A stretch of DNA of 64,000 bases from Streptomyces sp. NBC_00536 (GTDB lineage Bacteria > Actinomycetota > Actinomycetes > Streptomycetales > Streptomycetaceae): positions 6,572,001 through 6,636,000 of the forward strand of contig NZ_CP107819.1 in the NCBI RefSeq assembly GCF_036346295.1, in the 5' to 3' direction. The notes beneath the pieces are model-generated. The model saw only the letters and a list, made by a program, of their open reading frames with translations, was not told the origin of the DNA and searched no databases. Below are positions 7,598 through 28,243 of this stretch, piece after piece; position 1 is the stretch's first letter, and each line of letters opens with the position of its first letter. A program made the translations under genes and the position numbers.

Positions 7598-8041
7598 ATG
7601 CGCCGTGCGATCGCCTCGGCCGTAGTCGCCGGGGCCGCCGGAATCGTGCTGGGCCTGGCTCCGCTGGGCAGCGCCGTAGCGGCGGCCCAGCCACAGACCC
7701 TCCCGCAGACCTGGTGGTGCTCCGATCAGTGGCACGGACAGGACTGGCGTACCTGCTGCGACCCCTCGCGCGGGGACGACCGTCCCAGCTGGTGCTGGGA
7801 CTGGCGCTCGGACAACGGGAACTGGAACCACGACAGCAGCTGGGACAACAGCTGGAACCGTGACAACAACTGGAACCACGACAGCGGTTGGAACAACGAC
7901 AGCAACTGGAACCACGACAACTGGAGCCACGACAACGGCTGGAACCACGACAACGGCGGTGACGGCAACTGGAACCACGACGGCAACGGTGGCCATGACG
8001 GCAACTGGAGCCACGACAGCAGCTGGAGCAGGAACCGCTAG
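7598..8041 (+). CDS. secreted Trp/Asn/His/Asp-rich repeat protein
   Basis: 147 residues. A Sec signal peptide (MRR, then a long Ala/Val/Gly/Leu core, with probable cleavage near SAVAAA) is followed by a short region with four cysteines (WWCSDQW, TCCD, SWCW). The last 80 or so residues are built from units like NWNHD, SWDNS, GWNND and NWSHD. The ATG at 7598 is preferred over 7592 because GGAGG ends 9 nt before it and only 3 nt before the other. The repeat is alternately aromatic and polar, with many His and Asp, so metal or glycan binding is conceivable, but I recognise no family. It overlaps the convergent M24 peptidase gene by 4 nt. Confidence 0.75.
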   Translation: MRRAIASAVVAGAAGIVLGLAPLGSAVAAAQPQTLPQTWWCSDQWHGQDWRTCCDPSRGDDRPSWCWDWRSDNGNWNHDSSWDNSWNRDNNWNHDSGWNNDSNWNHDNWSHDNGWNHDNGGDGNWNHDGNGGHDGNWSHDSSWSRNR

Positions 8042-9408
8042 CCCTCCAGCAGGGTCCCCATCCATTCCTCGATACCCGTCACCGTGCGGGGGAGCGCGCC
8101 CGACATCAGGCGCGCTCCTTCCGCTGTGATGACCAGGTCGTCCTCGATCCGGACCCCGATCCCCCGCAGTTCCGCGGGGAGGGTCTCGTCGTCCGGCTGG
8201 AGGTAGAGGCCCGGCTCCACGGTGAGGACCTGCCCCTCCTCCAGCACTCCGTCCAGGTACGTGTCCTGCCGTGCCTGGGCGCAGTCGTGGACGTCCAGTC
8301 CCAGCATGTGACCGCTGCTGCACAGCGTGTACCGGCGGTGCAGGTCCCCTTCCGCATCCTTCAGGACGCCCCAGTCGGCGAGCCCCTCGGCGATGACCCG
8401 CATCCCGGCCCGGTGGAAGTCGCGGAAGCTGGCCCCGGGGCGCAGCGCCGCCATGCCCGCGTCCTGTGCGGCCAGCACCAGTTCGTAGACCTGCCGCTGG
8501 ACGGGTGAGAAGCGGCCGGAGAGCGGCAGGGTGCGGGTGACGTCGGCCGTGTAGAGGGTGTCGGTCTCCACGCCCGCGTCCAGGAGCAGGAGTTCGTCCC
8601 GGTTCAGCCTGCCGTCGTTGTGGATCCAGTGCAGCACGCAGGCGTGCGCGCCGGAGGCCGCGATCGTGTCGTAGCCGGTGCCGTTGCCCTCGGCGCGGGC
8701 GCGCAGCCCGAAGACCCCCTCGATCCAGCGCTCGCCGCGCGGGTGGGCGAGGGCGCGCGGCAGCGCCCGTACGACGTCCTCGAACCCGGCGGCCGTGTGG
8801 TCGACGGCGAGCTGCAACTGGGCCACTTCCCAGGCGTCCTTGACCAGGCGCAGCTCGGAGAGGGCGGTGGCGAGCGCCGGGTCGTGCGCGGCGTGGCGGG
8901 CCTCGGGGGCGCCCAGGGTGTCCAGGTGGGCGCAGCGGATGCCGGTGAGCCGCTCGGCCTCGGCGAGGTCGGGGCGGCGGCCGACCCAGAACTCGCCGTA
9001 GCGGCGGTCCCGGTAGAACTCCTCGGTGCCGTCGGTGCGCGCCGAGCGCGGCCGCAGGTACAGGACGGCCTCGTGCCCGTGCGGCCCGGCCGGTTCCATC
9101 ACCAGCACGTGTCCGACCTGGTCCTCGCCGGTGAGTCCGGTGAGCCAGGCGTAGGCGCTGTGCGGGCGGAAGCGGTGGTCGCAGTCGTTGGAGCGGACCT
9201 TGAGTTCGCCCGCCGGGATGATCAGCCGCTCGCCCGGGAAGCGGGCCGAGAGCCGTGCGCGCCGGGCCGGGGTGACGGCGTGGGCGGCGACGCGGGCATC
9301 GGCCGGCAGGGGTGAGGCGGACCAGTTTCCGGACATGAAGGCGGACAACTCGGCTGATACGGGCAGATCGTGGCTGCCCGTATTGAGACGGGAGGGGCGG
9401 TCGGTCAC
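8038..9408 (-). CDS. M24 family metallopeptidase, Xaa-Pro aminopeptidase (aminopeptidase P) type
   Basis: 456 residues. Residues 1-190 form the aminopeptidase-P N-terminal domain. The C-terminal 'pita-bread' domain keeps all five metal ligands: D277 (LLLLDAG), D289 (TADVTRT), H367 (SSGHMLG), E398 (TVEPGLY) and E422 (RIEDDL). These enzymes remove the residue before proline from peptides, in the cytoplasm. GTG start at 9408 with GGGAGC upstream. It is divergent from the collagenase and shares the 175-bp region that holds the operator/promoter module at 9451-9489, which suggests common control. In this context it would finish digestion of Gly-Pro/Hyp-rich peptides. Confidence 0.88.
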   Translation of the reverse strand: MTDRPSRLNTGSHDLPVSAELSAFMSGNWSASPLPADARVAAHAVTPARRARLSARFPGERLIIPAGELKVRSNDCDHRFRPHSAYAWLTGLTGEDQVGHVLVMEPAGPHGHEAVLYLRPRSARTDGTEEFYRDRRYGEFWVGRRPDLAEAERLTGIRCAHLDTLGAPEARHAAHDPALATALSELRLVKDAWEVAQLQLAVDHTAAGFEDVVRALPRALAHPRGERWIEGVFGLRARAEGNGTGYDTIAASGAHACVLHWIHNDGRLNRDELLLLDAGVETDTLYTADVTRTLPLSGRFSPVQRQVYELVLAAQDAGMAALRPGASFRDFHRAGMRVIAEGLADWGVLKDAEGDLHRRYTLCSSGHMLGLDVHDCAQARQDTYLDGVLEEGQVLTVEPGLYLQPDDETLPAELRGIGVRIEDDLVITAEGARLMSGALPRTVTGIEEWMGTLLEG

Positions 9409-9450
9409 GAAAGCTCCCTGGGAAGACGTGAACTGGTGGGCGCACAGGGG

Positions 9451-9489
9451 TTGTCAGTGCAATTTCACATTACTATGTTACAGGTCACA
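9451..9489 (+). promoter_or_regulatory. promoter-operator module of the collagenase gene (site A)
   Basis: TTGTCA (9451-9456), 17 nt, TATGTT (9474-9479) is a strong promoter pointing at the collagenase. Over it lies ATTTCACATTACTATG and, just after, a reverse-orientation TGTGACCTGTAAC core. The 39 bp are identical to 20256-20294 except one base. The region is also upstream of the divergent M24 gene. Confidence 0.8.
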
Positions 9490-9583: not shown

Positions 9584-11992
9584 GTGTCCCAGCACAGAGC
9601 TGTGCGTACGTCCCTCCTCGCCGCCGCCGTCACGGTGACCCTCCTCGCCTCCGCAGGCCAGGTCGTGGCCCAGACGGCCGGTGCCGGTGCCGCCCCGGTC
9701 CCCGCGACGTTCGCCTCGGGCACGCCCGCCGCCGCCCCGGCCCCGGCGGGCCAGAACCCCTTCGACGAGGTCCAACACCTCGCCACCGCCCCCGCGCTCA
9801 CCTCGGCACCGGCCCCCGCCCCGGGAACCGGTCAGGAAGCGGGCAAGATAGCCGGACCGGCCCCGGCCGCCGCCCCCAGCGCCACCCAACTCGCCGACCG
9901 CGGCGCGGAGAAGGCCGGCAAGGCCACCTCGCAGCGCACGGCGGGCAACGGCCTGCTGGCCGCGGGCGTCCCCTGCACCCTCGACGGCATCACGGGCCTG
10001 TCCCCGGAGCAGTTCGCCGACTTCCTCGCCGACTCCTCGGTCACCGCGGACGGCTGCCTGCGCGGGCTCATCTGGACCTGGGACGCCCGCCTGGTCCCGG
10101 TGATGTCCGACGCCCACGTCCAGGCCGTCTCGCGCCGGATATCCAGCCTGGCCGCCGCCCACGACGGCCGTAACTCCTCGCACCTGGAGGAGATGTTCAC
10201 GTACCTGCACGCCGTCGTCTACCACGACTACTCGCACACCGAGATCGACGTCACCGACGCCCCGACGGTCGACGCGATGCGCGCCGCCATCGCCGACTTC
10301 GGCGCCGCCGCCCACACCTTCGACGTCAGCGCCTCCAACGCCCGCACCCTGCGCGAGGCCCTCTACGCGGGCAGCGCCCCGGGTCTGCGCCAGCACCAGA
10401 TCGGCCTGATCAAGAAGGTCCTGCCCGTCCTGGACCCGGCCCACCCGCAGACCAACCAGGACGCCTCCTGGGCGGGCGCCGTGCTCGCCGGTCTGTCCGT
10501 GAACTACCTGGGCGTCTACCCGGGCAACAACGACGCCGCGTTCCACACGGCGGTCGCGGCCGACCCCGCCTACCGCGCCATGTTCAAGGCCTACGCCGGC
10601 TACGGCCACCTCAAGGGCACCGCCAACGCCTGGGCGGCGCGCGACGCGATCAGCGAGTACGGCCGGTTCGGCCAGGTCGAGGGGCTGGAGGCGCAGATCA
10701 CCGCCGACCTCGGCGCCCTGCTGGAGCCGGTCAAGACGACCTTCGGCAACGGCAGCGAGCAGTGGGCCAAGATCGTCTCCTGGCTCAACACCTACAACGC
10801 CTGCAAGCCGTACGGGGTGTGCAAGGACGACATCGAGAAGGTGCTCTTCCCGAACACCTACACCTACGACAACGGCGGCATCAAGGTCCGCACCGCCCTC
10901 GACCGGGCCACCGTCGACCAGCTCTACTACGCGAGCAAGCAGGTCAAGACCCAGTTCCACCGGGTGCTCGGCACCGACCAGCCGCTCGCCGGTGACACCA
11001 ACACCACCCTGAACATCGTGCTGTACGCCTCCCGCGCCGACTACGAGAACTACCACCCGATCCTCACCGGCATGGGCACCAACAACGGCGGCATCTACAT
11101 CGAGAACGGCGCCACCTTCTACACCTACCAGCGCCGGGTGCCGCAGGACTCCTCCCTCACCCTGGAGGAGCTGTTCCGCCACGAGTACACCCACTACCTC
11201 AACGGCCGCTGGGCCGTGCCCGGCTTCTTCGGCCAGGGCGACTGGTACCAGAACGACCGCACGACCGCCATGGACGAGGGCACCGCCGAGTTCTTCGACG
11301 GCGCCACCCGCGACAACGGCATCGCCGTCCGCAAGTCCCTGGTCAAGGGCATCATCAACGACACCGCGGGCGGCGGGCCGCGGATGAACGTCCAGCAGCT
11401 GCTCCACGCCACCTACAGCAACGACGGCTTCCGCTTCTACAACTACGCGGGAACGTTCTTCGAGTTCCTGTGGACCCAGAAGCCCTCGGAACTGCGCGAG
11501 ATGTACAGCCGCATCCGCGCGAACGACGTGGCGGGCTTCGACGCCTGGCGCGTGCGCATGGGCTCGGACAGCTACATCCAGCGCGACTACGACAAGTTCC
11601 TGGACGCGCAGATCGCCAAGGTGAACGACCTGTACGTGCCGAACACCGTCTTCACCGCCAACGACCAGCTGCGCGACTCCGCGCTCGCGTCGGTGAAGTC
11701 CTCCTTCGCCACCGCCACCTCCAACAACCCGGACTGCGTGGAGAACGGCGACCCCGGCAAGCGCCGCTTCACCTGTACGGGCCGGATCACCGCGAACCTG
11801 AAGGACTGGCGCAGCAACGACCAGAACTTCAAGGACATGTCCGAGACGGTCGACTACTTCATCCTCGACCGGGCGGGCGCGGTCTCCAACAACCTCGCCG
11901 ACATGAACTGTTCCTTCGGCGCGGTGGAGATCTGGTCCAGCAAGGTCGCGGGGACGTCGAGTTACAGCTGTGAGGGCCCGCTGCGCAGCTGA
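9584..11992 (+). CDS. secreted M9 family collagenase
   Basis: 802 residues. GTG start at 9584, chosen because AGGAG lies 6 nt upstream and a Sec signal follows (VRTSLLAAAVTVTLLAS, then cleavage near VVAQTA); the frame is open further upstream but crosses the promoter. After a Pro/Ala-rich linker (about 30-120) comes the M9 activator domain, then the catalytic domain. The zinc motif is H533-E-Y-T-H537, with E565 in MDEGTAEF as third ligand, 28 residues after H537 as in clostridial collagenases. Cuts native collagen outside the cell into Gly-Pro-Hyp-type peptides. No PKD or collagen-binding repeats are obvious; a short C-terminal cysteine-containing domain follows. Ends in a strong terminator. 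Confidence 0.93.
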   Translation: MSQHRAVRTSLLAAAVTVTLLASAGQVVAQTAGAGAAPVPATFASGTPAAAPAPAGQNPFDEVQHLATAPALTSAPAPAPGTGQEAGKIAGPAPAAAPSATQLADRGAEKAGKATSQRTAGNGLLAAGVPCTLDGITGLSPEQFADFLADSSVTADGCLRGLIWTWDARLVPVMSDAHVQAVSRRISSLAAAHDGRNSSHLEEMFTYLHAVVYHDYSHTEIDVTDAPTVDAMRAAIADFGAAAHTFDVSASNARTLREALYAGSAPGLRQHQIGLIKKVLPVLDPAHPQTNQDASWAGAVLAGLSVNYLGVYPGNNDAAFHTAVAADPAYRAMFKAYAGYGHLKGTANAWAARDAISEYGRFGQVEGLEAQITADLGALLEPVKTTFGNGSEQWAKIVSWLNTYNACKPYGVCKDDIEKVLFPNTYTYDNGGIKVRTALDRATVDQLYYASKQVKTQFHRVLGTDQPLAGDTNTTLNIVLYASRADYENYHPILTGMGTNNGGIYIENGATFYTYQRRVPQDSSLTLEELFRHEYTHYLNGRWAVPGFFGQGDWYQNDRTTAMDEGTAEFFDGATRDNGIAVRKSLVKGIINDTAGGGPRMNVQQLLHATYSNDGFRFYNYAGTFFEFLWTQKPSELREMYSRIRANDVAGFDAWRVRMGSDSYIQRDYDKFLDAQIAKVNDLYVPNTVFTANDQLRDSALASVKSSFATATSNNPDCVENGDPGKRRFTCTGRITANLKDWRSNDQNFKDMSETVDYFILDRAGAVSNNLADMNCSFGAVEIWSSKVAGTSSYSCEGPLRS

Positions 11993-12090: not shown

Positions 12091-12106
12091 ATGTGACATA
12101 TTACTG
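12091..12106 (+). promoter_or_regulatory. GntR-type operator (site C) at the hydroxyproline dehydrogenase operon start
   Basis: ATGTGACATATTACTG matches the TGTGAC[A/C]TnTnAC core shared by five other sites nearby. It ends 2 nt before the GTG start of the dehydrogenase gene, so it overlaps the probable -10 region and start point. Confidence 0.7.
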
Positions 12107-12108: not shown

Positions 12109-13362
12109 GTGCCCAAGAGACCACCTACGGACGCACCCGCCGACGCATCCTCCGGCGCACCCGCGGCCGCCGCCCCGGACGCCCCGCTGGATGCCGTCAT
12201 CATCGGCGCGGGCGTCGTCGGAGCCGCCTGCGCGTACTACGCCACCCGCGCCGGACTCTCCGTGGCCGTCGTCGACCGCGGCCCCGTCGCGGGCGGCACG
12301 ACCGGCGCCGGAGAAGGCAACCTGCTCGTCTCCGACAAGGGGCCGGGACCCGAACTCGACCTCGCGCTGCTCTCCACCACCCTGTGGCGCGAACTGGCCG
12401 CCGCCCTCCCGGCGCAGACCGAGTACGAAGCCAAGGGCGGCCTGGTCGTCGCCCCCGACGAAGCCACCCTGAAGGCCCTGCGGGTCTTCGCCGACGGCCA
12501 GCGCGCCGTCGGCGTCACGGCCACCGAGGTGGCGGCGGACGCGCTCCACGACCTGGAGCCGCACCTCGCCCCCGGCCTCGCGGGCGGCTTCCACTACCCC
12601 GACGACGCCCAGGTCCAGCCCGCCCAGGCGGCCGCCCGGCTGCTCGCCGCCAGCGGCGCCCGCGTCTTCACCGGCGAGGAGGTCACCGCGGTCCTCCGCT
12701 CGGCCGACGGCGCGGTACGGGGCGTGCGCACCCCGCGCCGCACCCTGCACGCCCCGGCCGTCGTCAACGCGGCCGGCACCTGGGGCGGCGCGATCGCCGA
12801 ACTCGCCGGCACCACCCTGCCCGTCATGCCCCGCCGCGGCTTCGTCCTGGTCACCGAGCCCCTCCCGCGCGTCGTGCGGCACAAGGTGTACGCCGCCGAC
12901 TACATCGCCGACGTCGCCAGCGGCTCCGCCGCCCTCCAGTCCTCCGCCGTCGTCGAAGGCACCCCCGCCGGGCCGGTCCTCATCGGCGCCACCCGTGAAC
13001 GGGTCGGCTTCGACCGCGCCCTGTCCACCGAAGCCCTGCGCCGCCTCGCCGCCCAGGCCGCCGCCCTCTTCCCGGTCCTCGCGGACGTCCGGGTGCTGCG
13101 CGCCTACCACGGCTTCCGCCCCTACCTCCCCGACCACCTCCCGGCGATCGGCCCCGACCCGCGGGTCCCCGGGCTGCTGCACGCCTGCGGCCACGAGGGC
13201 GCGGGCATCGGCCTCGCCCCCGGCACCGGGATGCTGATCGCCGCCGCGCTCACCGGCGCCGCCGCCCCGCTGGACCCCGGGCCCTTCCGGCCCGACCGCT
13301 TCGCGCCCGACGCCTCGACGCCCGGCCCCTCGACGTCCGACCGCCCCACGAAGGAGGCCTGA
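12109..13362 (+). CDS. FAD-dependent oxidoreductase, D-hydroxyproline dehydrogenase flavin (beta-type) subunit
   Basis: 417-residue DadA/sarcosine-oxidase-type flavoprotein. The FAD loop DAVIIGAGVVGAACAYYA sits near residue 30, and the C-terminal second flavin region is HACGHEGAGIGLAPGTG. With the next two genes it forms the three-component layout (amine-oxidase flavoprotein, small 2Fe-2S protein, NAD(P)/FAD protein) known from D-hydroxyproline dehydrogenases and HcnABC-type enzymes. It would oxidise cis-4-hydroxy-D-proline to pyrroline-4-hydroxy-2-carboxylate. GTG 12109 has no visible ribosome site and abuts operator C, so the message may be leaderless. The stop overlaps the next start by 1 nt (TGATG). 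Confidence 0.82.
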   Translation: MPKRPPTDAPADASSGAPAAAAPDAPLDAVIIGAGVVGAACAYYATRAGLSVAVVDRGPVAGGTTGAGEGNLLVSDKGPGPELDLALLSTTLWRELAAALPAQTEYEAKGGLVVAPDEATLKALRVFADGQRAVGVTATEVAADALHDLEPHLAPGLAGGFHYPDDAQVQPAQAAARLLAASGARVFTGEEVTAVLRSADGAVRGVRTPRRTLHAPAVVNAAGTWGGAIAELAGTTLPVMPRRGFVLVTEPLPRVVRHKVYAADYIADVASGSAALQSSAVVEGTPAGPVLIGATRERVGFDRALSTEALRRLAAQAAALFPVLADVRVLRAYHGFRPYLPDHLPAIGPDPRVPGLLHACGHEGAGIGLAPGTGMLIAAALTGAAAPLDPGPFRPDRFAPDASTPGPSTSDRPTKEA

Positions 13363-13700
13363 TGGCCAGCCCGCGCCGCACCCGTCGGCCCCGGGAACCG
13401 CGCGACCTCGTCGGCGGCGCGGCACCGGCCGCCCACACCGTCGAGTTCGACGGCCGTACGCTGCCCGCACAGGACGGCCAGAGCATCGCCGCCGTCCTGT
13501 GGGCCGCCGGGATCCTCGCCTGGCGCACCACCCGCGAGGGCGGCGCCCCGCGCGGCGCGTTCTGCGGGATCGGCAGTTGCTACGACTGCCTCGTCACCGT
13601 CAACGGCCTCCCCAACCAGCGCGCCTGCCTGGTCCCGGCCCGGCCCGGGGACACCGTCACCACCCAGGAGGGAACCGGCCGTGCCGACCTCGCCGTCTGA
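13362..13700 (+). CDS. (2Fe-2S)-binding protein, hydroxyproline dehydrogenase gamma-type subunit
   Basis: 112 residues, of which about 24-112 are a ferredoxin-like fold with four cysteines C68, C73, C76 and C89 in FCGIGSCYDC...RAC. This is the compact Fer2_4 type found as small subunit of heteromeric amine dehydrogenases, passing electrons between the two flavoproteins. Its stop lies 20 nt inside the following gene, a tight overlap that implies fixed stoichiometry. Function assigned from the three-gene context. Confidence 0.85.
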   Translation: MASPRRTRRPREPRDLVGGAAPAAHTVEFDGRTLPAQDGQSIAAVLWAAGILAWRTTREGGAPRGAFCGIGSCYDCLVTVNGLPNQRACLVPARPGDTVTTQEGTGRADLAV

Positions 13701-15168
13701 CCCCGCCGGAGCCTCCGCGGGCTCCTGCGACCTCGCCGTCGTCGGGGCGGGCCCCGCCGGGCTCGCCGCCGCCGTCACCGCCGCCGACCTGGGCCTGCGC
13801 GTCACCCTCGTCGACGCGGGGGAGCGCCCGGGCGGCCAGTACTACCGCCACCCCGCCCCCGGGCTCGGCGCCGCCCGCCCCGAGGCCCTGCACCACGACT
13901 GGGCCGCCTTCCAAGGCCGTGAACGGCGGCTGCGCGCCCACGAGTCGGCGGGCCGGATCACCTTCCTGCCCGCCCACCACGTCTGGACCGTGGTCCCGGA
14001 CACCGCCGCCGGCGCGGGGCACTGGCTGCTGCACGCCGTCGCGGGCACCCGAGGCGAGGACGAGCGCGCCGTCACCCTGAGCGCCCGCGCCGTCCTGCTC
14101 GCCACCGGCGCCCACGAGCGCCAGCTGCCCTTCCCCGGCTGGACGCTGCCCGGCGTGGTCGGGGCCGGGGGAGCGCAGGCCATGCTCAAGGCCGGTCTCG
14201 TCCTGCCCGGCCGCCGGATCGTGGTCGCGGGCAGTGGTCCGCTGCTGCTGGCGGTCGCCGGATCCCTGGCCGCCGCCGGGGCCCGGGTGCCCGCCGTCGT
14301 GGAGGCCGCCTCCTACACGGCCTACGCGGGCCGGGTGCCCACCCTGCTGCGCAACCCCGGCAAGCTCCTCGAAGGCGCCGTCCACGGCGGGGCGCTGCTG
14401 CGCCACGGGGTGCGGCTGCGCACCCGCCACGCCGTGGTCGAAGCCCTCGGCACGGACCGGGTCGAGGCCGTGGTCGTGGCCCGGCTCGACCGCGACTGGC
14501 GGCCGGTGCCCGGCACCGAGCGCCGGATCCGCTGCGACGCGCTCGCCGTCGGCCACGGCCTGGTGCCCCAGCTGGAACTCGCCACCGGCCTCGGCTGCGC
14601 CACCGTGCCCGCGGCGGACGGGACGGTGGCGCTCGGCCTCGACGGGAGCCAGCGGACCTCGGTCCCCGGCATCTGGTCGGCGGGCGAGACCGGCGGGATC
14701 GGCGGCGCCGGACTGGCCCTGGCCGAGGGTGAACTGGCGGCGTACTCCGTCGCGGGCCGCCCGGCCCCGGCCGCCCTGGTGCGCCGCCGGGCCCGGCTGC
14801 GGGCCTTCGCCGACGCGATGGGCGCGGCCCACCGCCCGGGGGGCGGGTGGACCGGGTGGCTGCCGGACGACACCGACGTGTGCCGCTGCGAGGAGGTCCC
14901 GGCCGGGCGGATCCGGGAGGCCGTGAGCGATCTCGGCGCGCGGGACGCCCGTACCGTCAAACTGCTCACCCGCGCGGGCATGGGCTGGTGCCAGGGCCGG
15001 ATGTGCGGCGCCGCCGTCACCGCGCTCGCGGGCGGCGAAGCGGCCGCCGACCGGCGCCCGTTGTCCTGTCCGGTGCCGCTGCGCCAGCTCGCCGCGCTGC
15101 CCGCCGCGGGCCGGACCGCCGCCGGGGAGCCCGCCGACCGGCCCGGCGACGAGCCCGTATCCCCGTAG
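13681..15168 (+). CDS. NAD(P)/FAD-dependent oxidoreductase with BFD-like 2Fe-2S site, hydroxyproline dehydrogenase alpha-type subunit
   Basis: 495 residues. It has an N-terminal FAD loop (VVGAGPAGLAAAVTAAD), a second nucleotide-binding loop in the middle (VVAGSGPLLLAVAG) and a C-terminal BFD-like iron-sulphur site: C401, C403, C437, C442 (CRCEE ... CQGRMC). This matches the alpha subunit of heteromeric D-hydroxyproline dehydrogenases. The GTG start at 13681 lies within the end of the 2Fe-2S gene. Other members of this fold are opine or cyanide-forming oxidases, but the neighbours support hydroxyproline. Confidence 0.83.
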   Translation: MPTSPSDPAGASAGSCDLAVVGAGPAGLAAAVTAADLGLRVTLVDAGERPGGQYYRHPAPGLGAARPEALHHDWAAFQGRERRLRAHESAGRITFLPAHHVWTVVPDTAAGAGHWLLHAVAGTRGEDERAVTLSARAVLLATGAHERQLPFPGWTLPGVVGAGGAQAMLKAGLVLPGRRIVVAGSGPLLLAVAGSLAAAGARVPAVVEAASYTAYAGRVPTLLRNPGKLLEGAVHGGALLRHGVRLRTRHAVVEALGTDRVEAVVVARLDRDWRPVPGTERRIRCDALAVGHGLVPQLELATGLGCATVPAADGTVALGLDGSQRTSVPGIWSAGETGGIGGAGLALAEGELAAYSVAGRPAPAALVRRRARLRAFADAMGAAHRPGGGWTGWLPDDTDVCRCEEVPAGRIREAVSDLGARDARTVKLLTRAGMGWCQGRMCGAAVTALAGGEAAADRRPLSCPVPLRQLAALPAAGRTAAGEPADRPGDEPVSP

Positions 15169-15194: not shown

Positions 15195-15238
15195 TTGTGG
15201 CCGCCCTGCGCCCGCTAGTAAAATGTCACACATCACAT
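15195..15238 (+). promoter_or_regulatory. promoter with overlapping operator (site D) before the deaminase gene
   Basis: TTGTGG (15195-15200), 18 nt, TAAAAT (15219-15224). The operator is on the reverse strand: read from 15236 downward it is GATGTGTGACATTTTACTA, with the shared TGTGACAT core. It overlaps the -10 box, fitting repression. Confidence 0.65.
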
Positions 15239-15251: not shown

Positions 15252-16181
15252 ATGACCGACGCGCCCACCCCCGCGCCCACCACCCCCTCGCCCCGCACCC
15301 GCCCCTGGCACGGCATCATGGTCGCCACGGCCCTGCCGCTGCGCGAGGACCAGTCCGTCGACTACGACGCCTACGCCGAACACGTGGCCTGGCTGATCGC
15401 CAACGGCTGCGACGGCGTCGTCCCCAACGGCTCGCTCGGCGAGTACCAGACGCTCACCGACGAGGAGCGCGCCCGGGTCGTCCGCACCGCCATCGAGGCC
15501 GCCGGCGACGGGGACCGCGTGATGGCGGGCGTCGCCGCCTACGGCAGCGCCGAGTCCCGCCGCTGGGCCGAACAGGCCGCCGAAGCGGGCGCGGGCTCCG
15601 TCCTGCTGCTCCCGCCGAACGCCTTCCGCGCCGACCACGACGCCGTACGCGCCCACTACGCCGAGGTCGCCAAGGTCCAGGTGCCCGTCGTCGCGTACAA
15701 CAACCCGATCGACACCAAGGTCGACCTGACCCCGCCGCTGCTCGCCCGGCTGTACGCCGACGGCAGCATCGTCGCGGTCAAGGAGTTCACCGGGGACGTC
15801 CGGCGCGCCTACGAGATCGCCGAACTCGCCCCGGGCCTCGACCTGCTCATCGGCTCCGACGACGTCCTGGTCGAACTCGCCCTCGCCGGCGCCGTCGGCT
15901 GGATCGCGGGCTACCCCAACGCCCTGCCGAACTCCTGCGCCGCGCTCTACCGGGCCGCCGTCGCCGGTGACCTGGAGACCGCCCTGCCGCTGTACAAGTC
16001 CCTGCACCCGTTGCTGCGCTGGGACTCCAAGACCGAGTTCGTCCAGGCCATCAAGCTCTCCATGGACCTCGCGGGCCGCCCCGGCGGGTCCGTCCGGCCG
16101 CCCCGCTTCCCGCTCACCGGCGAGACCGAGGCCGCCGTCCGCGCCGCCACCGAGAAGGCCCTTGCCGAGGGCCTCAACTAG
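15252..16181 (+). CDS. dihydrodipicolinate synthase family protein, probable 1-pyrroline-4-hydroxy-2-carboxylate deaminase
   Basis: 309-residue class I aldolase-like TIM barrel of the DapA family. The Schiff-base lysine is K177 (VAVKEFTGD) and the conserved tyrosine Y149 (VAYNNP); GSLGEYQTLTDEER is the phosphate/keto-acid loop region. In hydroxyproline degradation this family opens and deaminates pyrroline-4-hydroxy-2-carboxylate to 2-oxoglutarate semialdehyde. A ribosome site AAGGAG lies 8 nt before the ATG. It is followed by the 4-hydroxyproline epimerase, which supports the assignment over lysine biosynthesis or sugar-acid aldolases. Confidence 0.85.
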   Translation: MTDAPTPAPTTPSPRTRPWHGIMVATALPLREDQSVDYDAYAEHVAWLIANGCDGVVPNGSLGEYQTLTDEERARVVRTAIEAAGDGDRVMAGVAAYGSAESRRWAEQAAEAGAGSVLLLPPNAFRADHDAVRAHYAEVAKVQVPVVAYNNPIDTKVDLTPPLLARLYADGSIVAVKEFTGDVRRAYEIAELAPGLDLLIGSDDVLVELALAGAVGWIAGYPNALPNSCAALYRAAVAGDLETALPLYKSLHPLLRWDSKTEFVQAIKLSMDLAGRPGGSVRPPRFPLTGETEAAVRAATEKALAEGLN

Positions 16182-19354: not shown

Positions 19355-19363
19355 CATTGTACG
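19349..19363 (+). promoter_or_regulatory. GntR-type operator (site E) upstream of the regulator gene
   Basis: ACGTGACATTGTACG overlaps the reductase stop codon and a possible -10 box TACGCT (19360-19365), 33 nt before the gntR start. Fits autoregulation and would let the regulator be transcribed apart from the operon. Confidence 0.65.
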
Positions 19364-20326: not shown

Positions 20327-22072
20327 ATGACCAAGCGCCATCAACTCGCCCTCGCCACCGCCCTGGTGGCGGCTCTCGCACTCGGCGCCTCGGGCTGCTC
20401 CGGCACCAAGAAGGCCTCGGCGGGCGGGGGCGGCGGTGCCAACCCGGCCGCCGCCAACGACGGCCGGACCGTCGGCGGCACCCCGGTCAAGGGCGGCACC
20501 CTCACCGTCCTGTCCAACCAGGACTTCGCCCACCTCGACCCGGCGCGCAACTGGGTCATGCCGACGATGGACTTCGGCACCCGGCTGCTCTACCGCACCC
20601 TGGTCACCTTCAAGGCCGAACCGGGCAAGGGCGGCAGCGACCTCGTCCCCGACCTCGCCACCGACCTCGGCACCCCCTCCAACGGCGGCCGGACCTGGAC
20701 CTTCACCCTCAAGGAGGGCCTGAAGTACGAGGACGGCACGCCGATCAAGGCCGCCGACATCAAGTACAACGTCGAGCGCTCCTTCGCCCCGGACCTCACC
20801 GGCGGCCCCGACTACGCCGCCCAGTACCTGGCCGGCACCGAGGGTTACAAAGGTCCCTTGCAGGGACAACATCTCGACTCCGTCAAGACCCCGGACGACC
20901 GCACGATCGTCTTCGAACTGAAGCGGCCGGTCGCCGAGTTCTCCGCCACCACCACCCTGCCGACCTTCGCACCGGTCCCCGTGGCCCAGGAGAAGGGCAC
21001 CCAGTACGACGCCCGCCCCTTCTCCTCCGGCCCGTACAAGATCGAGTCCTACGACCGGGACAAGAAGCTCGTCCTGGTCCGCAACGAGCACTGGGACCCG
21101 AAGACGGACACCGTCCGCAAGGCCTACCCCGACAAGTTCGTCGTGGTCATGGGCCTCAAGGGCGGCCAGATCGACGACCGCATCATCGCCGGGGAGGGCG
21201 CCGACGCCTCCACCGTCGAGTGGTCCAACATGCGGCCCGAGAGCGCCCCCAAGGTGCTGCCCAAGCCGGACATCAAGCAGCGCCTGCTCGCCGAGTCCCA
21301 GGGCTGCACCACGATGCTCAGCCTCAACAACTCCCGCGCCCCCTTCAACGACCCCAAGGTCCGCGAGGCCATGCAGTACGCGGTCGACAAGGAGGCCATC
21401 ATCACCGCGGGCGGCGGCCCGGCCCTCAACGAGGTCGCCACCTCCTACCTGCCGCCCGCGCTCGCCGGCGGCAAGCAGGCCGATCCCCTCAAGATCGCCC
21501 CCGCGGGCGACCCCGCCAAAGCCAAGGACCTCCTGAAGGCCGCGGGCAAGGAGAAGCTGAAGGTCTCCCTCGCCGTCTCCACCGGCGACAAGGGCAAGGC
21601 GGAGGCCATCCAGCAGGGCCTGTCCCGCGCGGGCATCGAGGTCGTCATCGACACCGTCGACCCGGGCGCCTACTACGACGTCATCGGTGACCTGTCCACC
21701 ACGCCCGACATGACGATGGCCGGCTGGTGCCCCGACTACCCCTCCGGCTCCACCTGGCTCCCCATGGTCTTCGACGGACGCACCATCAAGCCCAAGGGCA
21801 ACCAGGGCAACAACAGCCAGTTCCGCGATGACGCAACCATGAAGCGGATCGACGAGATCAACGCCATGGCCGAGGCCAAGGAAGCCAACCAGGCCTGGAA
21901 GGATCTCGACACGGCCATCATGGCCAAGTCCCCGTCCGTCCCCCTCTTCCTGGAGCGCAAGCCGCTGCTCGTCGGACCCAACATCGCGGGCGCCTTCGGC
22001 CACCCCGTCTGGGTCGGCCAGATCGACTACGCGACCGTGGGTCTCAAGGACCCGGCGAAGAGCCAGGGCTGA
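20327..22072 (+). CDS. peptide ABC transporter substrate-binding lipoprotein (SBP_bac_5 family)
   Basis: 581 residues. It has a lipoprotein signal with the acylated cysteine at about C24 (ALGASGC), a Gly/Ala linker, then the extended type II binding fold of DppA/OppA: GGTLTVLSNQDFAHLDPARNW near the start and GRTWTFTLKEGLKYEDGTPI. Expected to bind di- or oligopeptides outside the membrane. A ribosome site TGGAG lies 6 nt before the ATG. It is the first gene of a five-gene operon under the same promoter module as the collagenase, so Pro/Hyp-containing collagen peptides are the likely cargo. Confidence 0.88.
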   Translation: MTKRHQLALATALVAALALGASGCSGTKKASAGGGGGANPAAANDGRTVGGTPVKGGTLTVLSNQDFAHLDPARNWVMPTMDFGTRLLYRTLVTFKAEPGKGGSDLVPDLATDLGTPSNGGRTWTFTLKEGLKYEDGTPIKAADIKYNVERSFAPDLTGGPDYAAQYLAGTEGYKGPLQGQHLDSVKTPDDRTIVFELKRPVAEFSATTTLPTFAPVPVAQEKGTQYDARPFSSGPYKIESYDRDKKLVLVRNEHWDPKTDTVRKAYPDKFVVVMGLKGGQIDDRIIAGEGADASTVEWSNMRPESAPKVLPKPDIKQRLLAESQGCTTMLSLNNSRAPFNDPKVREAMQYAVDKEAIITAGGGPALNEVATSYLPPALAGGKQADPLKIAPAGDPAKAKDLLKAAGKEKLKVSLAVSTGDKGKAEAIQQGLSRAGIEVVIDTVDPGAYYDVIGDLSTTPDMTMAGWCPDYPSGSTWLPMVFDGRTIKPKGNQGNNSQFRDDATMKRIDEINAMAEAKEANQAWKDLDTAIMAKSPSVPLFLERKPLLVGPNIAGAFGHPVWVGQIDYATVGLKDPAKSQG

Positions 22073-22074: not shown

Positions 22075-23028
22075 ATGACCGACACCGCACCCGCCGCCGC
22101 CCCTGGGGCGGCGGCGGCCAAGGTCCCCCCGGGCAGCAGCCCCTGGCAGCTCGCCCGGCGGGAACTCCGCCGCCGCCCCGCCGTCCGCGTCAGTCTCGTC
22201 ATCGTCGTCCTCTTCGTCCTGATGGCCGCCGCCGCCCCCTGGCTGGGCGCGCTCGGCGGCTGGGACCCGGACACCTACGACAAGAGCGCCATCGACGCCT
22301 ACCTCGGCGGCCTCCCGCTCGGCTCCCTCGGCGGCATCGGCCCCGACCACTGGCTCGGCGTCGAACCCGTCACCGGCCGCGACCTCTTCTCCCGCGTCGT
22401 GCACGGCGCCCAGGTCTCCCTCCTGATCGCCTTCACCGCCACCGCGATCGTCGTCATCGCCGGGACCGCCGCGGGCATCGCCGCCGGATACTTCGGCGGC
22501 CGAACCGACGCCGTCCTGTCCCGGCTGATGGACCTGACGATGTCCTTCCCCTCCCTCATCTTCATGATCGCCGTCCTGTCGGTGGCCAAGGACGTCAACC
22601 GGATCGTCCTCATGACCGCCGTCATCGGCCTCTTCGGCTGGCCCGGCATCGCCCGCGTCGTCCGCGGCCAGACCCTCTCCCTCAAACACCGCGAGTACGT
22701 GGACGCGGCCCGGGTCGGCGGCGCCGGCGCCTGGCGGATCCTGACCCGCGACATCCTCCCCGGAGTCTCCGGCCCCGTCATCGCCTACACCACCCTGCTC
22801 ATCCCCGGCATGATCAGCACCGAGGCCGCCCTGAGCTACCTGGGCGTGGGCGTGCGCCCGCCCACCCCGTCCTGGGGCCAGATGATCGCCGAGAGCGTCG
22901 CCTTCTACGAGACCGACCCCATGTACTTCGTCATCCCCAGCGCCTTCCTCTTCCTCGCCGTCCTCGCCTTCACCCTGCTCGGCGACGCACTGCGCGACAT
23001 CCTCGACCCCCGGGGCGGCCGCACGTGA
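22075..23028 (+). CDS. peptide ABC transporter permease, DppC type
   Basis: 317 residues. A soluble N-terminus is followed by one membrane helix (VSLVIVVLFVLMAAAAPWLG), a periplasmic-type loop with the DHWLGVEPVTGRDLFSRVVHGAQVSLLIA signature start, and five more helices. The EAA cytoplasmic loop for contact with the ATPases is YVDAARVGGAGAWRILTRDILP. The gene follows the binding protein by 2 nt and overlaps the second permease by 4 nt. DppC-like members normally come after DppB; here the order is reversed. Confidence 0.88.
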   Translation: MTDTAPAAAPGAAAAKVPPGSSPWQLARRELRRRPAVRVSLVIVVLFVLMAAAAPWLGALGGWDPDTYDKSAIDAYLGGLPLGSLGGIGPDHWLGVEPVTGRDLFSRVVHGAQVSLLIAFTATAIVVIAGTAAGIAAGYFGGRTDAVLSRLMDLTMSFPSLIFMIAVLSVAKDVNRIVLMTAVIGLFGWPGIARVVRGQTLSLKHREYVDAARVGGAGAWRILTRDILPGVSGPVIAYTTLLIPGMISTEAALSYLGVGVRPPTPSWGQMIAESVAFYETDPMYFVIPSAFLFLAVLAFTLLGDALRDILDPRGGRT

Positions 23029-24011
23029 TCCTCTACCTGCTGCGCCGCCTGCTCGCCCTGGCCGGGGTGCTGCTCGCCATCGCCGCCGTCACCTTCCTCA
23101 TCTTCTACGTCCTGCCCTCCGACCCGGCCGCCGCCGCCTGCGGCAAGAGCTGCAGCGAGGAACGGATCGCCGTGGTGCGCGAGTACCTCGGCCTCGACCA
23201 GCCGCTGTGGCGCCAGTTCCTCGACTTCCTCAGCGGCATCTTCACCGGCCGCACCCTGGGCACCGGCCAGTACGCCGTGCAGTGCGACTTCCCGTGCCTG
23301 GGCTACTCGTACGAGAATTCCCTGCCCGTGTGGGACCTGCTCATGGACCGGCTCCCGGTCTCCGCCTCCCTCGCCGTCGGCGCCGCCGCCCTGTGGCTGC
23401 TGCTGGGCCTGGGCGCCGGGGTCACCGCCGCCCTGCGCAAGGACACCGTCACCGACAAGGCCCTGATGGTCGGCGCGGTCGCCGCCGCCTCGATGCCGGT
23501 CTACTTCACCTCCGTGATGCTGATCTACGGGGTGATCCGCGTCGCCGACCTGCTGCCCTACCCCACCTACCATCCCTTCACCGACGACCCGCTCGGCTGG
23601 GCCGGCAACCTGCTGCTGCCCTGGACCGCCCTCGCGCTGCTGTACGCCGCCATGTACGCCCGCCAGAGCCGCGGTTCGATGATCGAGGCGATGGCCGAGC
23701 CGTACATCCGTACCGCCCGGGCCAAGGGCATGCCCGAACGCACCGTCGTCGTCAAACACGGCCTGCGCTCCGCGATGACCCCCATCCTCACCATCTTCGG
23801 CATGGACCTCGGCGGCCTGCTCGCCGGAGCCGTCATCACCGAATCCCTCTTCGGACTCCCCGGCATCGGACGGCTCTTCTACGGCGCCCTCGTCAACTCC
23901 GACCAGCCGGTGGTCCTCGGCGTCACCCTGCTCGCCGCCTTCTTCATCGTCGTCGCCAACCTCGTCGTCGACCTCCTGTACGCCGTCATCGACCCGAGGG
24001 TGAGGTACTGA
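23025..24011 (+). CDS. peptide ABC transporter permease, DppB type
   Basis: 328 residues, six predicted membrane helices. It begins with the DppB-typical LRRLLALAGVLLAIAAVTFLIFYVLPSDPAAAACG, and the EAA loop is YIRTARAKGMPERTVVVKHGLR. Its external loop after the first helix contains several cysteines (ACGKSCSEE and CDFPCLGYS), more than usual for the family. GTG start overlaps the previous stop (GTGA); the ATG of the next gene overlaps its stop by 1 nt. Confidence 0.88.
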   Translation: MILYLLRRLLALAGVLLAIAAVTFLIFYVLPSDPAAAACGKSCSEERIAVVREYLGLDQPLWRQFLDFLSGIFTGRTLGTGQYAVQCDFPCLGYSYENSLPVWDLLMDRLPVSASLAVGAAALWLLLGLGAGVTAALRKDTVTDKALMVGAVAAASMPVYFTSVMLIYGVIRVADLLPYPTYHPFTDDPLGWAGNLLLPWTALALLYAAMYARQSRGSMIEAMAEPYIRTARAKGMPERTVVVKHGLRSAMTPILTIFGMDLGGLLAGAVITESLFGLPGIGRLFYGALVNSDQPVVLGVTLLAAFFIVVANLVVDLLYAVIDPRVRY

Positions 24012-25045
24012 TGGCCGCTCTCCTTGAAGTGCGCGACCTGCACGTCACGTTCAGCACCCCGCGCGGCACCGTCCGCGCCGTGGACTCGCTCGGCTTCACC
24101 GTCGAGGCGGGCCGCACCCTCGGCATCGTCGGGGAATCCGGATCCGGCAAGTCCGTCACCTCCCTCGCCGTCATGGGACTGCACCGCGACGCCGAGATCA
24201 GCGGCTCCATCGCCCTCGACGGCCGCGAACTCACCACGCTGGGCGAGAAGGAACTCTCCCGGCTGCGCGGCCGCAAGATGGCCATGATCTTCCAGGACCC
24301 GCTCTCCAGCCTGCACCCCTACTACACGGTCGGCGAACAGATCTCCGAGCACTTCCGGGTCCACTTCAAAGCCGGCCGGGCCGCGGCGCGCAAACGCGCC
24401 GTCGACATGCTCGGCGAGGTCGGCATCCCCGAACCCGCCCGCCGCGCCGGGGAGTACCCGCACCAGTTCTCCGGCGGCATGCGCCAGCGCGCGATGATCG
24501 CCATGGCGCTGGCCTGCGAACCCGACCTGCTCATCGCGGACGAGCCCACCACCGCCCTCGACGTCACCGTCCAGGCGCAGATCCTCGAACTGATCGCCCG
24601 GCTCCAGCAGGACCGCGGCCTCGGCGTCGTCATGATCACCCACGACCTCGGGGTGGTCGCCCGCGTCGCCCACGAGGTGCTGGTCATGTACGGCGGCCGG
24701 GCCGCCGAACAGGCCCCCGCCGACGCGCTGTTCGCCGACCCCGCCCACCCCTACACCCGGGGCCTGCTGGACTCCCTGCCCCGGCTCGACGACGCCGACG
24801 ACCAGCCGCTGCGCACCATCCCCGGCTCCCCGCCCTCCCTGCGCGAACCCGCCCCGGGCTGCGCCTTCGCCCCGCGCTGCGCCCGCGCCGCCGCGGGCAC
24901 CGATGCCGAGCGGCTGCGCTGTACGACGGTCCGGCCCGCCCTCGATCCGTACGCGGGCCCCGCGCGCCGGGTGGCCTGCCACTTCGCGGGCGGCCCCGGC
25001 GCGGCCCCGGCCGCCACGGATCCCGTACAGGAGGCCTCCCGGTGA
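24011..25045 (+). CDS. peptide ABC transporter ATP-binding protein, DppD type
   Basis: 344 residues. Walker A is GESGSGKS, the signature [14 protein letters not shown], Walker [13 protein letters not shown] and the H-loop ITHDLGVVA. The C-terminal oligopeptide/dipeptide extension contains a cysteine cluster ([12 protein letters not shown]). ATG 24011 overlaps the DppB stop (TGATG). Pairs with the next gene as the ATPase heterodimer. Confidence 0.9.
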
Positions 25046-26049
25046 CCACCACGAGCACCGCGACCGGCGCCGGAGCCGCCGCGCCACCCCTGCTGTCCGT
25101 CCGCGACCTGACCATGGCCTTCCCCGGCAAGCGCACCGCCACCGGCCGCAAGGGCGCCCCCGTCCGGGCCGTGGACGGGGTCTCCTTCGAGCTGGCCGCC
25201 GGGGAAACCCTCGGCCTGGTGGGGGAGTCGGGCTGCGGCAAGTCCACCACCGGCCGGATGCTGGTCCGGCTGCTGGAACCCACCTCGGGGAGCATCGCCT
25301 TCGAGGGCCGGGAGATCGCCCGGCTCTCTCAAGGCGCGATGCGGCCGCTGCGCCGCCACCTCCAGATGGTGTTCCAGGACCCGCACTCCTCCCTCAACCC
25401 CCGCCAGACGGTGGCCCGGATCATCTCCGACCCCCTGCTGGTCCAGGGCTGGAGCGCGCAGGACGCCCGCCGCCGGGCGGCCGAGCTGATGGAACTGACC
25501 GGGCTGATCCCCGAGCACATCGACCGCTACCCGCACGAGTTCTCCGGCGGCCAGGCCCAGCGCATCGGCATCGCCCGTTCGCTGGCCACCAGCCCCCGGC
25601 TGATCATCGCCGACGAGCCGGTCTCCGCCCTCGACGTCTCCGTACAGGCACAGATCGTCAACCTGATGGAACGGCTGCGCCGTGAACTCGGCCTGGCGTA
25701 CGTCTTCATCGCGCACGACCTCTCCGTCGTCAAGCGGGTCAGCGACCGGGTCGCCGTGATGTACCTGGGCCGGATCGTCGAGATCGGGGACAAGCACGCG
25801 CTGTACGCCGACCCCCAGCACCCCTACACCCGGGCGCTGCTGTCCGCCGTACCGCTGCCCGACCCGGTCGCCGAGCGGCGCCGGGAGCGGATCGTGCTGC
25901 TCGGCGACCCGCCGAGCCCGGCCGCGCCGCCGCCCGGGTGCTCCTTCCACCCGCGCTGCCCCAAGGCGCAGGATATCTGCCGCACCGAGCGGCCGGTGCT
26001 CCAGCCGGTCGCCGGACGCGATGTGGCGTGTCACTTCCCGGGGAACTGA
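25042..26049 (+). CDS. peptide ABC transporter ATP-binding protein, DppF type
   Basis: 335 residues. Walker A is GESGCGKST, the signature [14 protein letters not shown], Walker [13 protein letters not shown] and the H-loop IAHDLSVVK. The C-terminal region again carries the cysteine cluster of oligopeptide transporters ([16 protein letters not shown]). GTG start overlaps the DppD stop by 4 nt; last gene of the transporter operon, followed by a strong terminator. Confidence 0.9.
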
Positions 26050-26133: not shown

Positions 26134-28212
26134 TCAGGCCAGGCCCAGCGCCTCGCGGAAGAAGGCGAGTTCCTGCGCCATCACCTTCTCGCGGACACCG
26201 CCGGTCGGCATGTGCGTGACCCCGGGCAGGGCCAGCAGCCGGTGCGGGCGCCCGGCGTCGGTCAGCGCCCGCGAGAGCCGCAGCGTGTGCGAGGGGTGCA
26301 CGTTGTCGTCGGCCAGCCCGTGGACCAGCAGCAACGGCCGGGTCAGCGCCGGGGCGTCACCGATCAGGCTGTCCCGCTCGTAGACCTCCGGCTCCTCCTG
26401 GGGCAGGCCCAGGTAGCGCTCGGTGTACGCCGTGTCGTAGTGCCGGAAATCGGTCGGCGCGGCCCCGGCCGCCGCCGCGTGGAAGACCTCGGGGTGCCGC
26501 AGCACGCCCATCGCGGCCAGATAGCCGCCGTAGGACCAGCCGCGCACCCCTACCCGGCCCAGGTCGAGGTCCGGGTGCCGCTCGCCGAGCGCGCGCAGCG
26601 CCGCCACCTGGTCCGCCATCGTCACCTCCGAGAACCCCCGGTACATGGCGTGCGTGAAGGCGGGGGAGACGTACGGGGTGCCCCGGTTGTCGACCGTGAC
26701 CACCGCGAACCCCTGGTCGGCCCACCACTGACGGGCCTGCCAGCGCCGCGGCTCGGCGGACACGTCCTGGTAGCCGGGGCCGCCGTAGGTGTCGAGCAGC
26801 ACGGGCAGCCGCCGCCCCGGGACGTGGCCGCGCGGCAGCACCAGCGCGGTCGGGATCCCGTGCTCGGTGACCCGTTCGAAGCGCGGCGCCACCCGGTACG
26901 GCAGCGGCTCGGCGAGGTCGGCGACGGTCAGCTCCCGCCCGTCCGCCGTGCGCAGGGTCCGCCGGAAGCCGTCGGCGTCGGCCGAGGTCAGCAGCAGGGC
27001 CCCGGCGGACGCGAGGGCCGTGTGCACCCCGGGCCCGTCGGCGAGCGGGGTCAGCTCCCCGGTGGCGGTGTCGAGCAGCAGCACCTGCTGCTCGGACGGG
27101 TCCCGCAGTCCGGCCTCGACGAGGAGGCGCCCGTCGTGCTCGCCGAGCACGCCGCGCACCTGTACGCCGTCCCCGGTGAGGGGTACGCCGTCGACGGCCA
27201 GGGCGCGCGCGGCCCCGCCCGGGGTGTCGACCGCGGTGAGCATCCGCCCGTCGGACAGCCGCGCCGGGGTGCCGGGCACCAGCTGGTCCACCCACTGGGG
27301 GTGCGTGGTGCGGGACAGCTCCGTGGTCCGCCCGGTGACCGGGTCGGCGCTGAGCAGCACCACTGTGCGCTGGAGCCGGTCCTGGACGGTCAGCAGGATC
27401 TCCCGCTCCGATTCCCAGCCGGCCTCGGAGACGTAGGGGAAGGTGGCCGCGTCCCAGTCGAGCCGGACGCCCGGTCCGCCGTCCGCGCCGAGCACCCAGA
27501 GCTGTACGTCGGCGTTGGGGCCGCCCGCCTCCGGGTAGGCGAAGTCCTCGGCGGGCCGCTCGGGGTGTTCCGGGTCGGCGAACCAGCGGCGCTGGAGGGC
27601 GTCTTCGACGACGCGGGCGGCCAGCAGGGTGACCCCGTCCGGGGACCACCAGTGGCCGCGGGTGCGGTCCAGTTCCTCGGCGGCGGCGAATTCGGCGATG
27701 CCCCAGCGGGCTCCGTCGGCGGGGCTGACCCGCCCGCCGGGGGAGACGTACAGGGCGTCGTCGCTCACGTAGGCGGTGCGCGAGCCGTCGGCGTTGGGGA
27801 GCGGGTCGAAGGCGGCCGCCTCGGCCGGGATCTCCGCGGGCGCCGCGTCCTTGTCCGCGGTGACCGCGTACAGCCGCCCGTACAGGGCGAAGACCGCCTG
27901 GCGGCCGACGCCGGAGAGCGCGTACGAGCCGATCCCGGCGGCGCTCAGCCGGATCCGCTCGCGCAGCCGCCGCTCGGCGAGGGGGAGTTCGCCGGGGCCG
28001 TCCGGCAGCAGGTCGCGGGGGTCGGCGAGCCGGGTCTCCGTGCCGGTGACGGTGTCGAGGACCCAGAGGCTGTCGAAGGGGTCGGTGGGGCCGGTGGAAC
28101 GGAGGAACCAGAGCAGCCGGCCGTCGTCCCCGAAGGAGAACGCGCGGGGGGCGCCGTGGGTGAAGCGGGCCGTGGCCGCGGAGAGGCGGAGGAAGTCGTC
28201 CTGAGAATCCAT
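26134..28212 (-). CDS. S9 family peptidase, dipeptidyl-peptidase IV/prolyl-oligopeptidase type
   Basis: 692 residues, cytoplasmic (no signal). Residues up to about 430 form the beta-propeller, and the alpha/beta-hydrolase domain follows. The triad is S560 (GWSYGGY), D635 (HGLADDNVH) and H667 (GVTHMPTGG). RYLGLPQEEPEVYERDSL is typical of the DPP IV branch, which removes Xaa-Pro dipeptides. The ATG at 28212 is chosen over one at 28242 because it avoids translating operator F; no clear ribosome site is seen. The operator directly upstream places it in the collagen-peptide regulon. Confidence 0.88.
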   Translation of the reverse strand: MDSQDDFLRLSAATARFTHGAPRAFSFGDDGRLLWFLRSTGPTDPFDSLWVLDTVTGTETRLADPRDLLPDGPGELPLAERRLRERIRLSAAGIGSYALSGVGRQAVFALYGRLYAVTADKDAAPAEIPAEAAAFDPLPNADGSRTAYVSDDALYVSPGGRVSPADGARWGIAEFAAAEELDRTRGHWWSPDGVTLLAARVVEDALQRRWFADPEHPERPAEDFAYPEAGGPNADVQLWVLGADGGPGVRLDWDAATFPYVSEAGWESEREILLTVQDRLQRTVVLLSADPVTGRTTELSRTTHPQWVDQLVPGTPARLSDGRMLTAVDTPGGAARALAVDGVPLTGDGVQVRGVLGEHDGRLLVEAGLRDPSEQQVLLLDTATGELTPLADGPGVHTALASAGALLLTSADADGFRRTLRTADGRELTVADLAEPLPYRVAPRFERVTEHGIPTALVLPRGHVPGRRLPVLLDTYGGPGYQDVSAEPRRWQARQWWADQGFAVVTVDNRGTPYVSPAFTHAMYRGFSEVTMADQVAALRALGERHPDLDLGRVGVRGWSYGGYLAAMGVLRHPEVFHAAAAGAAPTDFRHYDTAYTERYLGLPQEEPEVYERDSLIGDAPALTRPLLLVHGLADDNVHPSHTLRLSRALTDAGRPHRLLALPGVTHMPTGGVREKVMAQELAFFREALGLA

Positions 28213-28219
28213 GGGGGAA

Positions 28220-28243
28220 GTGTGACATGTGAAATACCACATG
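28220..28243. promoter_or_regulatory. GntR-type operator (site F) upstream of the S9 peptidase
   Basis: GTGTGACATGTGAAAT (28220-28235) carries the TGTGACAT core and continues to a CCACATG half-site. It ends 8 nt before the peptidase ATG (minus strand) and lies 52 nt upstream of the divergent MFS gene. Confidence 0.65.

Follow-up and report, generated by a model that had tools for sequence, protein, structure and literature searches.

Gene content of the block

The window, by which we mean the whole stretch of 64,000 nucleotides of Streptomyces sp. NBC_00536 DNA that was analysed, contains a 20-kb block in which genes for a secreted collagenase, two peptidases, an oligopeptide importer and hydroxyproline enzymes surround a regulator gene, hypR. 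The genes and sites are as follows (window positions).

8038–9408, minus strand: M24 peptidase of the aminopeptidase P type (Xaa-Pro cleaving); Pfam AMP_N and Peptidase_M24, best solved relatives aminopeptidase P
9451–9489: cassette 1, M24/colA intergenic region, promoter with two HypR-like boxes (−35 TTGTCA 9451–9456, box A 9457–9468, −10 TATGTT 9474–9479, box B 9477–9488)
9584–11992, plus strand: colA, secreted M9 collagenase; Pfam Peptidase_M9 and M9_N, HEXXH motif (here HEYTH) and a downstream Glu in the translation
12091–12106: HypR-like box directly 5′ of lhpB; same box elsewhere only in locus L074
12109–13362, plus strand: lhpB, FAD oxidoreductase, SCO6289-like D-hydroxyproline dehydrogenase beta subunit; Pfam DAO, gene order as SCO6289–6294
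13362–13700, plus strand: lhpF, SCO6290-like small dehydrogenase subunit by position only, with no NCBIfam match
13681–15168, plus strand: lhpE, dehydrogenase alpha subunit; Pfam Pyr_redox_2 and Fer2_BFD
15217–15238: HypR box 5′ of the deaminase gene, found in 64 of 65 loci
15252–16181, plus strand: DHDPS-family protein (Pfam DHDPS), Pyr4H2C deaminase by position (as SCO6292)
16264–17268, plus strand: 4-hydroxyproline 2-epimerase (Cys/Cys)
17265–18347, plus strand: second proline-racemase-family enzyme, Cys/Cys pair
18344–19354, plus strand: OCD family, probable Delta1-pyrroline-2-carboxylate (P2C) reductase
19349–19363: hypR operator; the HypR footprint core known from the literature, TACAATGTCAC, lies in its reverse complement
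19396–20118, plus strand: hypR, GntR/FCD repressor, ATG at 19396
20256–20294: cassette 2, 5′ of the importer (−35 20256–20261, box A 20262–20273, −10 20279–20284, box B 20282–20293)
20327–22072, plus strand: importer oligopeptide-binding protein; Pfam SBP_bac_5, lipobox-like LGASGC near the start
22075–23028, plus strand: importer permease, OppC-like
23025–24011, plus strand: importer permease, OppB-like
24011–25045, plus strand: importer ATPase, start taken from the translation
25042–26049, plus strand: importer ATPase
26134–28212, minus strand: S9 peptidase; nearest solved relatives dipeptidyl aminopeptidase 4
28220–28243: overlapping HypR-like boxes 5′ of S9, in the intergenic region common to S9 and the MFS gene at 28295

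The regulator gene is of the GntR/FCD (FadR) type and adjoins the hydroxyproline operon. Taking 19396 and 28212 as the starts of hypR and S9 puts the operators outside coding sequence; a longer hypR open reading frame from 19351 would start inside the operator. The importer SBP is closest to an oligopeptide-binding protein, and the substrate preferences given for the M24, S9 and SBP proteins are those generally known for these families. For comparison, the best 80 of 283 loci encoding a HypR relative were fetched, giving 81 with the window; 78 of the 80 are titled Streptomyces, one Microtetraspora glauca and one ‘Actinobacteria bacterium’ (loci are denoted by L numbers).

Hydroxyproline enzymes

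The block encodes a 4-hydroxyproline pathway comprising a Cys/Cys epimerase, a three-subunit dehydrogenase and a DHDPS-type deaminase, with the epimerase carrying MCGHGTI and DRSPCGTG in all 69 loci. No 2-oxoglutarate semialdehyde dehydrogenase was found among the block's proteins and the chain is therefore incomplete there. An earlier note on this DNA had called the regulon complete. In seven loci (L106, L111, L114, L119, L123, L126 and L127), nothing but the deaminase, epimerase and hypR was found; as the flank fetched encodes none of the three dehydrogenase subunits, a different dehydrogenase may act in these.

The same note had placed a 3-hydroxyproline branch beside this pathway, which now appears doubtful. 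In this reading, the genes at 17265–18347 and 18344–19354 encode a trans-3-hydroxyproline dehydratase and a P2C reductase; for the adjoining OCD protein, the nearest solved structure is indeed a P2C reductase, and the highest NCBIfam score of the racemase-family protein is to one dehydratase model (262.9 bits, against 210.7 for proline racemase and 188.6 for 4-hydroxyproline epimerase, all below cut-off). However, the other trans-3-hydroxyproline dehydratase model gives only 113.6 bits, also below cut-off, and the catalytic residues do not fit. A Cys-Cys pair marks racemases and epimerases, while the dehydratases described carry Cys-Thr or Ser-Thr (as reported in PMC4113996 and PMC4364671). 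The second racemase-family protein is of the former type, with a DRSPCGSG motif and Cys as the second catalytic residue in 45 of 45 loci; the first Cys was matched in 41, the other four being unmatched by the pattern used. We therefore consider the 3-hydroxyproline branch unlikely. The product of 17265–18347 is, on these residues, probably a racemase/epimerase, and together with the OCD protein it may serve in D-/L-proline salvage.

Relation to the HypR regulon of S. coelicolor

In Streptomyces coelicolor A3(2), the GntR/FadR repressor HypR (SCO6294) represses hypR itself, SCO6289–6293, the collagenase gene SCO5912 and SCO5281 (kgd) (Kotowska et al. 2019, PMC6608401). EMSA, footprinting and reporters are the basis given there for repression of SCO6289–6293, SCO5912 and hypR, with TACAATGTCAC in the hypR promoter as the HypR footprint and six more fragments bound. 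According to the same paper, L-Hyp induces in vivo, and HypR binding in vitro is unchanged by L-Hyp or D-Hyp. Because this work appeared in 2019, control of a collagenase and of hydroxyproline catabolism by one GntR protein is already known; the evidence supports well the single GntR regulon that the earlier note had proposed, reaching from the cutting of collagen to the breakdown of hydroxyproline, though its core had been described.

The two systems share a GntR/FadR repressor gene placed after lhpB-F-E, deaminase and epimerase genes, the same operator and a collagenase among the targets (PMC6608401). In contrast, the S. coelicolor targets are scattered (SCO5912, SCO5281, SCO6289–6294), whereas here there is one 20-kb block, which also holds the importer, M24, S9, the second racemase-family gene and the P2C reductase. 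The main text of PMC6608401 names neither a peptide importer nor an aminopeptidase; the words oligopeptide, aminopeptidase and importer are absent from it. The passages of PMC13170358 and PMC9739823 that mention S. coelicolor HypR name no further targets, and we found no description of an importer or peptidases as HypR targets in the literature searched. More distant counterparts, as described within PMC6608401, are Sinorhizobium meliloti HypR, a FadR-like GntR repressor of hydroxyproline genes, and the Pseudomonas aeruginosa lhp genes, with a three-subunit D-Hyp dehydrogenase, epimerase and deaminase. The former system differs in its dehydrogenase (HypO), and that description names no collagenase or peptide import; the latter is activated by the AraC-type LhpR, in contrast to GntR repression in the HypR system.

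HypR-type boxes in the window and genome

The six operator copies that the earlier note had reported are present, and all are HypR-type boxes: its consensus is the HypR motif read from the opposite strand. The core TGTGACMTNTNAC occurs exactly at 9477(−), 12092(+) and 15218(−), with one mismatch at 20282(−) and 28221(+), and with two at 19350(+). Allowing up to two mismatches, the window holds 22 matches compared with 9.7 expected (s.d. 3.1), a number reached by none of 100 shuffles; exact matches number five in the 9.15-Mb genome, three of them within the block. The footprinted TACAATGTCAC is found exactly in the window's hypR promoter, at 19351(−).

Using a matrix derived solely from the seven S. 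coelicolor 11-mers that HypR bound in EMSA (Table 1 of PMC6608401), we found that 19351, 20263, 9458 and 15219 are the top four of approximately 128,000 window positions. At a score of at least 15 there are five hits, all in the block (100 shuffles: mean 0.55, maximum 2). At 11.8 or above, 10 of 11 hits lie in the block, but 100 shuffles averaged 5.05 and reached up to 13. This number is within chance, so the sites at 12093 (11.9) and 28222 (12.1), neither of which is significant alone by this matrix, need other support. One point against a HypR reading is the GT-N8-AC spacing here, compared with the usual FadR spacing of 2–3 nt. A strong match inside the second racemase-family gene (CGCAATGTCAC, 18057–18067) is one of the five hits at 15 or above; the same 11-mer is also the best match upstream of the P2C reductase gene in L077 and L086, where a coding sequence in common may account for it.

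Scanning the whole genome with GTNNNATKTCAC returned 39 matches: 14 in pairs, 6 in the block and 19 elsewhere. The 14 form seven regularly spaced pairs, of which four tested matches are 23S rRNA and the other ten were assigned by spacing; the count is thus inflated by rRNA.

Conservation of boxes across loci

Boxes were scored against 2,000 random segments of the same loci, real sites included, for which the 95% level is 10.9. A box above this level precedes hypR in all 81 loci (the best 80 of 283 and the window), with the exact operator string in 80 and a degenerate box in L131. Boxes also precede the deaminase gene (64/65, the sole miss, L073, being masked by N), M24 (24/24), colA (45/47; misses L069 and L137), the importer (38/39; miss L139) and S9 (19/20; miss L083). 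M24 and colA, and likewise S9 and MFS, often lie on one intergenic region, so that the counts within each pair are not independent. Internal genes are nearly free of boxes: lhpF 1/54, lhpE 0/54, epimerase 0/69, second racemase-family gene 0/45, P2C reductase 2/51, the permeases 0/36 and 0/36, and the ATPases 0/34 and 0/34.

In the window, boxes stand before the hydroxyproline operon at 12091 and 15217. A box before lhpB was found in only 4 of 55 loci (the window, L074, L132 and L140, where it is the importer cassette), and we rejected the 12091 operator as a conserved element; it is a local, lineage-specific feature that the window has in common with a near relative, L074. The claim that a site precedes every transcription unit is therefore too strong, since it does not hold as a conserved feature. 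Membership of the MFS gene (28295) in the regulon is unsupported, a box being found in 17 of 24 MFS loci. Six of the seven boxless ones (L121, L122, L125, L131, L132 and L145; the seventh is L083) have no S9 neighbour, which makes S9 the likelier target.

The full gene order of the window was found in near relatives such as L066, and loci further removed carry rearranged subsets. In five loci from genomes encoding a HypR with 64–67% identity, the gene order is that of SCO6289–6294, and a box scoring above 14.5 was found before lhpB in 5/5 and before hypR in 3/5 (none above 14.5 in L285 and L286). Orthology of HypR to SCO6294 is suggested by gene order and operator. Seven loci (L099, L102, L103, L116, L117, L118 and L124) have hypR with the usual operator and no other block genes in the fetched flanks, although contig ends truncate L102 and L103.

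A conserved promoter cassette

The sequences at 9451–9489 and 20256–20294 are near-identical, each consisting of TTGTCA, box A, the −10 TATGTT and box B, with the boxes 20 bp apart. Two sigma-70-like promoters were found in 19.9 kb (0.3 expected), and both are in these cassettes. Searching 150 Streptomyces genomes with the first 31 bases (up to three mismatches), we identified 63 places in 43 genomes; the reversed control gave none. We examined 40 distinct places in addition to the window's two (30 from the loci returned and 10 from additional regions, with one extra region duplicating a place already counted). Of these, 39 adjoin colA, M24, the importer, lhpB or the second racemase-family gene, and the remaining one (L053), at a contig edge, adjoins hypR. 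The partners vary, with M24/colA, M24/importer and importer/lhpB pairs observed. Among 111 distinct cassettes, conservation drops outside the 39 bp, although the seed introduces a bias over the inner 31 bases; box B positions 35–38 (TCAC), which lie outside it, are 85–95% conserved.

Some HypR-like match at 1e-40 was found in 143 of the 150 genomes, and the best scores per genome leave a gap from 322.6 down to 290.8 bits, with 63 genomes above. All 43 cassette genomes are among the 63 with a best HypR above 300 bits, and none of the other 87 has a cassette (hypergeometric 1.7e-22, ignoring relatedness and with the cut-off set after the gap was seen). Twenty of the 63 close-HypR genomes have no cassette at up to three mismatches. 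Percentage identity by itself gives no clean division of the two groups, since values of 67–68%, over a shorter stretch, also occur in a few genomes on the low side of the gap. Some genomes encode two close HypR paralogues (76–87% identity to the window's; L287 and L288 in genome G058, L289 and L290 in G004), one with hydroxyproline genes and the other with colA/M24 or alone.

These data bear on whether HypR acts only at hypR and the 4-hydroxyproline operon, with the colA, M24 and importer cassettes bound by another regulator, for example Crp or another GntR protein. A conserved element of 39 bp is longer than one HypR box needs, and box A reads GTG-N6-CAC, which is superficially Crp-like. However, the S. 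coelicolor Crp motif, GTG(N)6GNCAC, as given in PMC10033298, has eight bases between GTG and CAC, not six, and Crp was rejected on this spacing. Moreover, in S. coelicolor it is HypR that binds the collagenase promoter and represses it (PMC6608401), and in the 150 genomes a cassette was detected only together with a close HypR. Binding by another regulator is therefore improbable. That the sites resemble one another through shared ancestry or chance in AT-rich promoter DNA, and are no functional operators, is very improbable: related genomes share sequence by descent, and 12093 and 28222 are within chance by the S. coelicolor matrix, but the edges of cassette conservation are sharp (given the seed bias of the inner 31 bases), the cassette survives gene rearrangement, boxes are nearly absent before internal genes, and 6 of the 25 non-rRNA-type genome matches of GTNNNATKTCAC, a pattern drawn from those sites, fall in this 20 kb.

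A probable enlarged HypR regulon

The block is very probably a local, enlarged HypR regulon, in which HypR would act through GTNNNATKTCAC-form boxes. From the observed genes and boxes, with their conservation and co-occurrence, we infer regulation by HypR in Streptomyces sp. NBC_00536; HypR would also bind and control the promoters of the importer and the peptidases, whose role would be peptide salvage. HypR (19396–20118), a FadR/FCD-type GntR repressor, would bind these boxes at its predicted promoters, namely those of hypR, the collagenase, aminopeptidase P, the hydroxyproline genes, the oligopeptide importer and the S9 peptidase. Box A overlaps the spacer and box B the −10, so that RNA polymerase should be kept off by repressor bound there; the two boxes, about two turns apart, could each hold a dimer on the same face. 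A build-up of hydroxyproline from collagen, or of a metabolite further down the pathway, would make HypR release and the chain be expressed. Secreted collagenase would then yield Pro/Hyp peptides for import and intracellular cleavage by aminopeptidase P and the DPP4-like peptidase, followed by hydroxyproline epimerisation, oxidation and deamination.

Overall, the block is a well-supported enlargement of a published regulon rather than an undescribed one. Apparently new, as predictions from sequence, are the membership of the oligopeptide importer, aminopeptidase P and the DPP4-like S9 peptidase, the 39-bp two-box promoter cassette common to colA/M24 and the importer, and the related boxes outside the block at a second collagenase and an InhA-like peptidase. 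The few targets published so far thereby become part of a testable collagen-to-carbon regulon with defined boxes, and a candidate importer and peptidases for collagen peptides in Streptomyces are named.

Related boxes outside the block

A second M9 collagenase gene, at C1:184542, has TGTGCAATTTTACATGTCACAC upstream; an operator thus stands before both M9 collagenase genes (for colA, in 45 of 47 loci). With up to three mismatches, this 22-mer was found at 19 places in 16 of the 150 genomes, two of them in the window's own genome. Twelve places lie at genes that match the second collagenase (with 38–42% identity in six cases) and six are in the S9/MFS intergenic region; in the last, L237, no pathway gene lies beside the match. 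A related overlapping box was found at an InhA-like M6 peptidase gene in four of five close orthologues, including the window's own (absent in L206), with scores of only 10.2 to 12.1 by the S. coelicolor matrix. Some M6 match was present in 60 of 61 genomes, mostly paralogues near 50%; those among the loci retrieved were scanned over a stretch of fixed length irrespective of strand and left out of this tally.

The distribution of these elements would fit a wider role, which we put forward as an even chance: HypR may be a genus-wide master switch of collagen feeding that acts through a portable 39-bp cassette, redeployed before the collagenase, aminopeptidase P, importer and hydroxyproline operon and, in one genome, a racemase/P2C-reductase pair, with the overlapping-box form serving S9, the second collagenase and the InhA-like M6 peptidase. 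Genes would have moved around a fixed switch, with no new sites evolved. The cassette itself clearly exemplifies a promoter switch that stays conserved through rearrangement of the neighbouring genes.

Unlike in S. coelicolor, where kgd is a HypR target (PMC6608401), kgd has no site here and was rejected as a target, the best score being 8.9 in 7 kb around the sole OxoGdeHyase_C gene. HypR-like boxes were also seen near the starts of genes for two secreted proteins of no assigned type (L201, C1:359046; L195, C1:302929) and for a secreted C70 cysteine peptidase (L202, C1:2046517).
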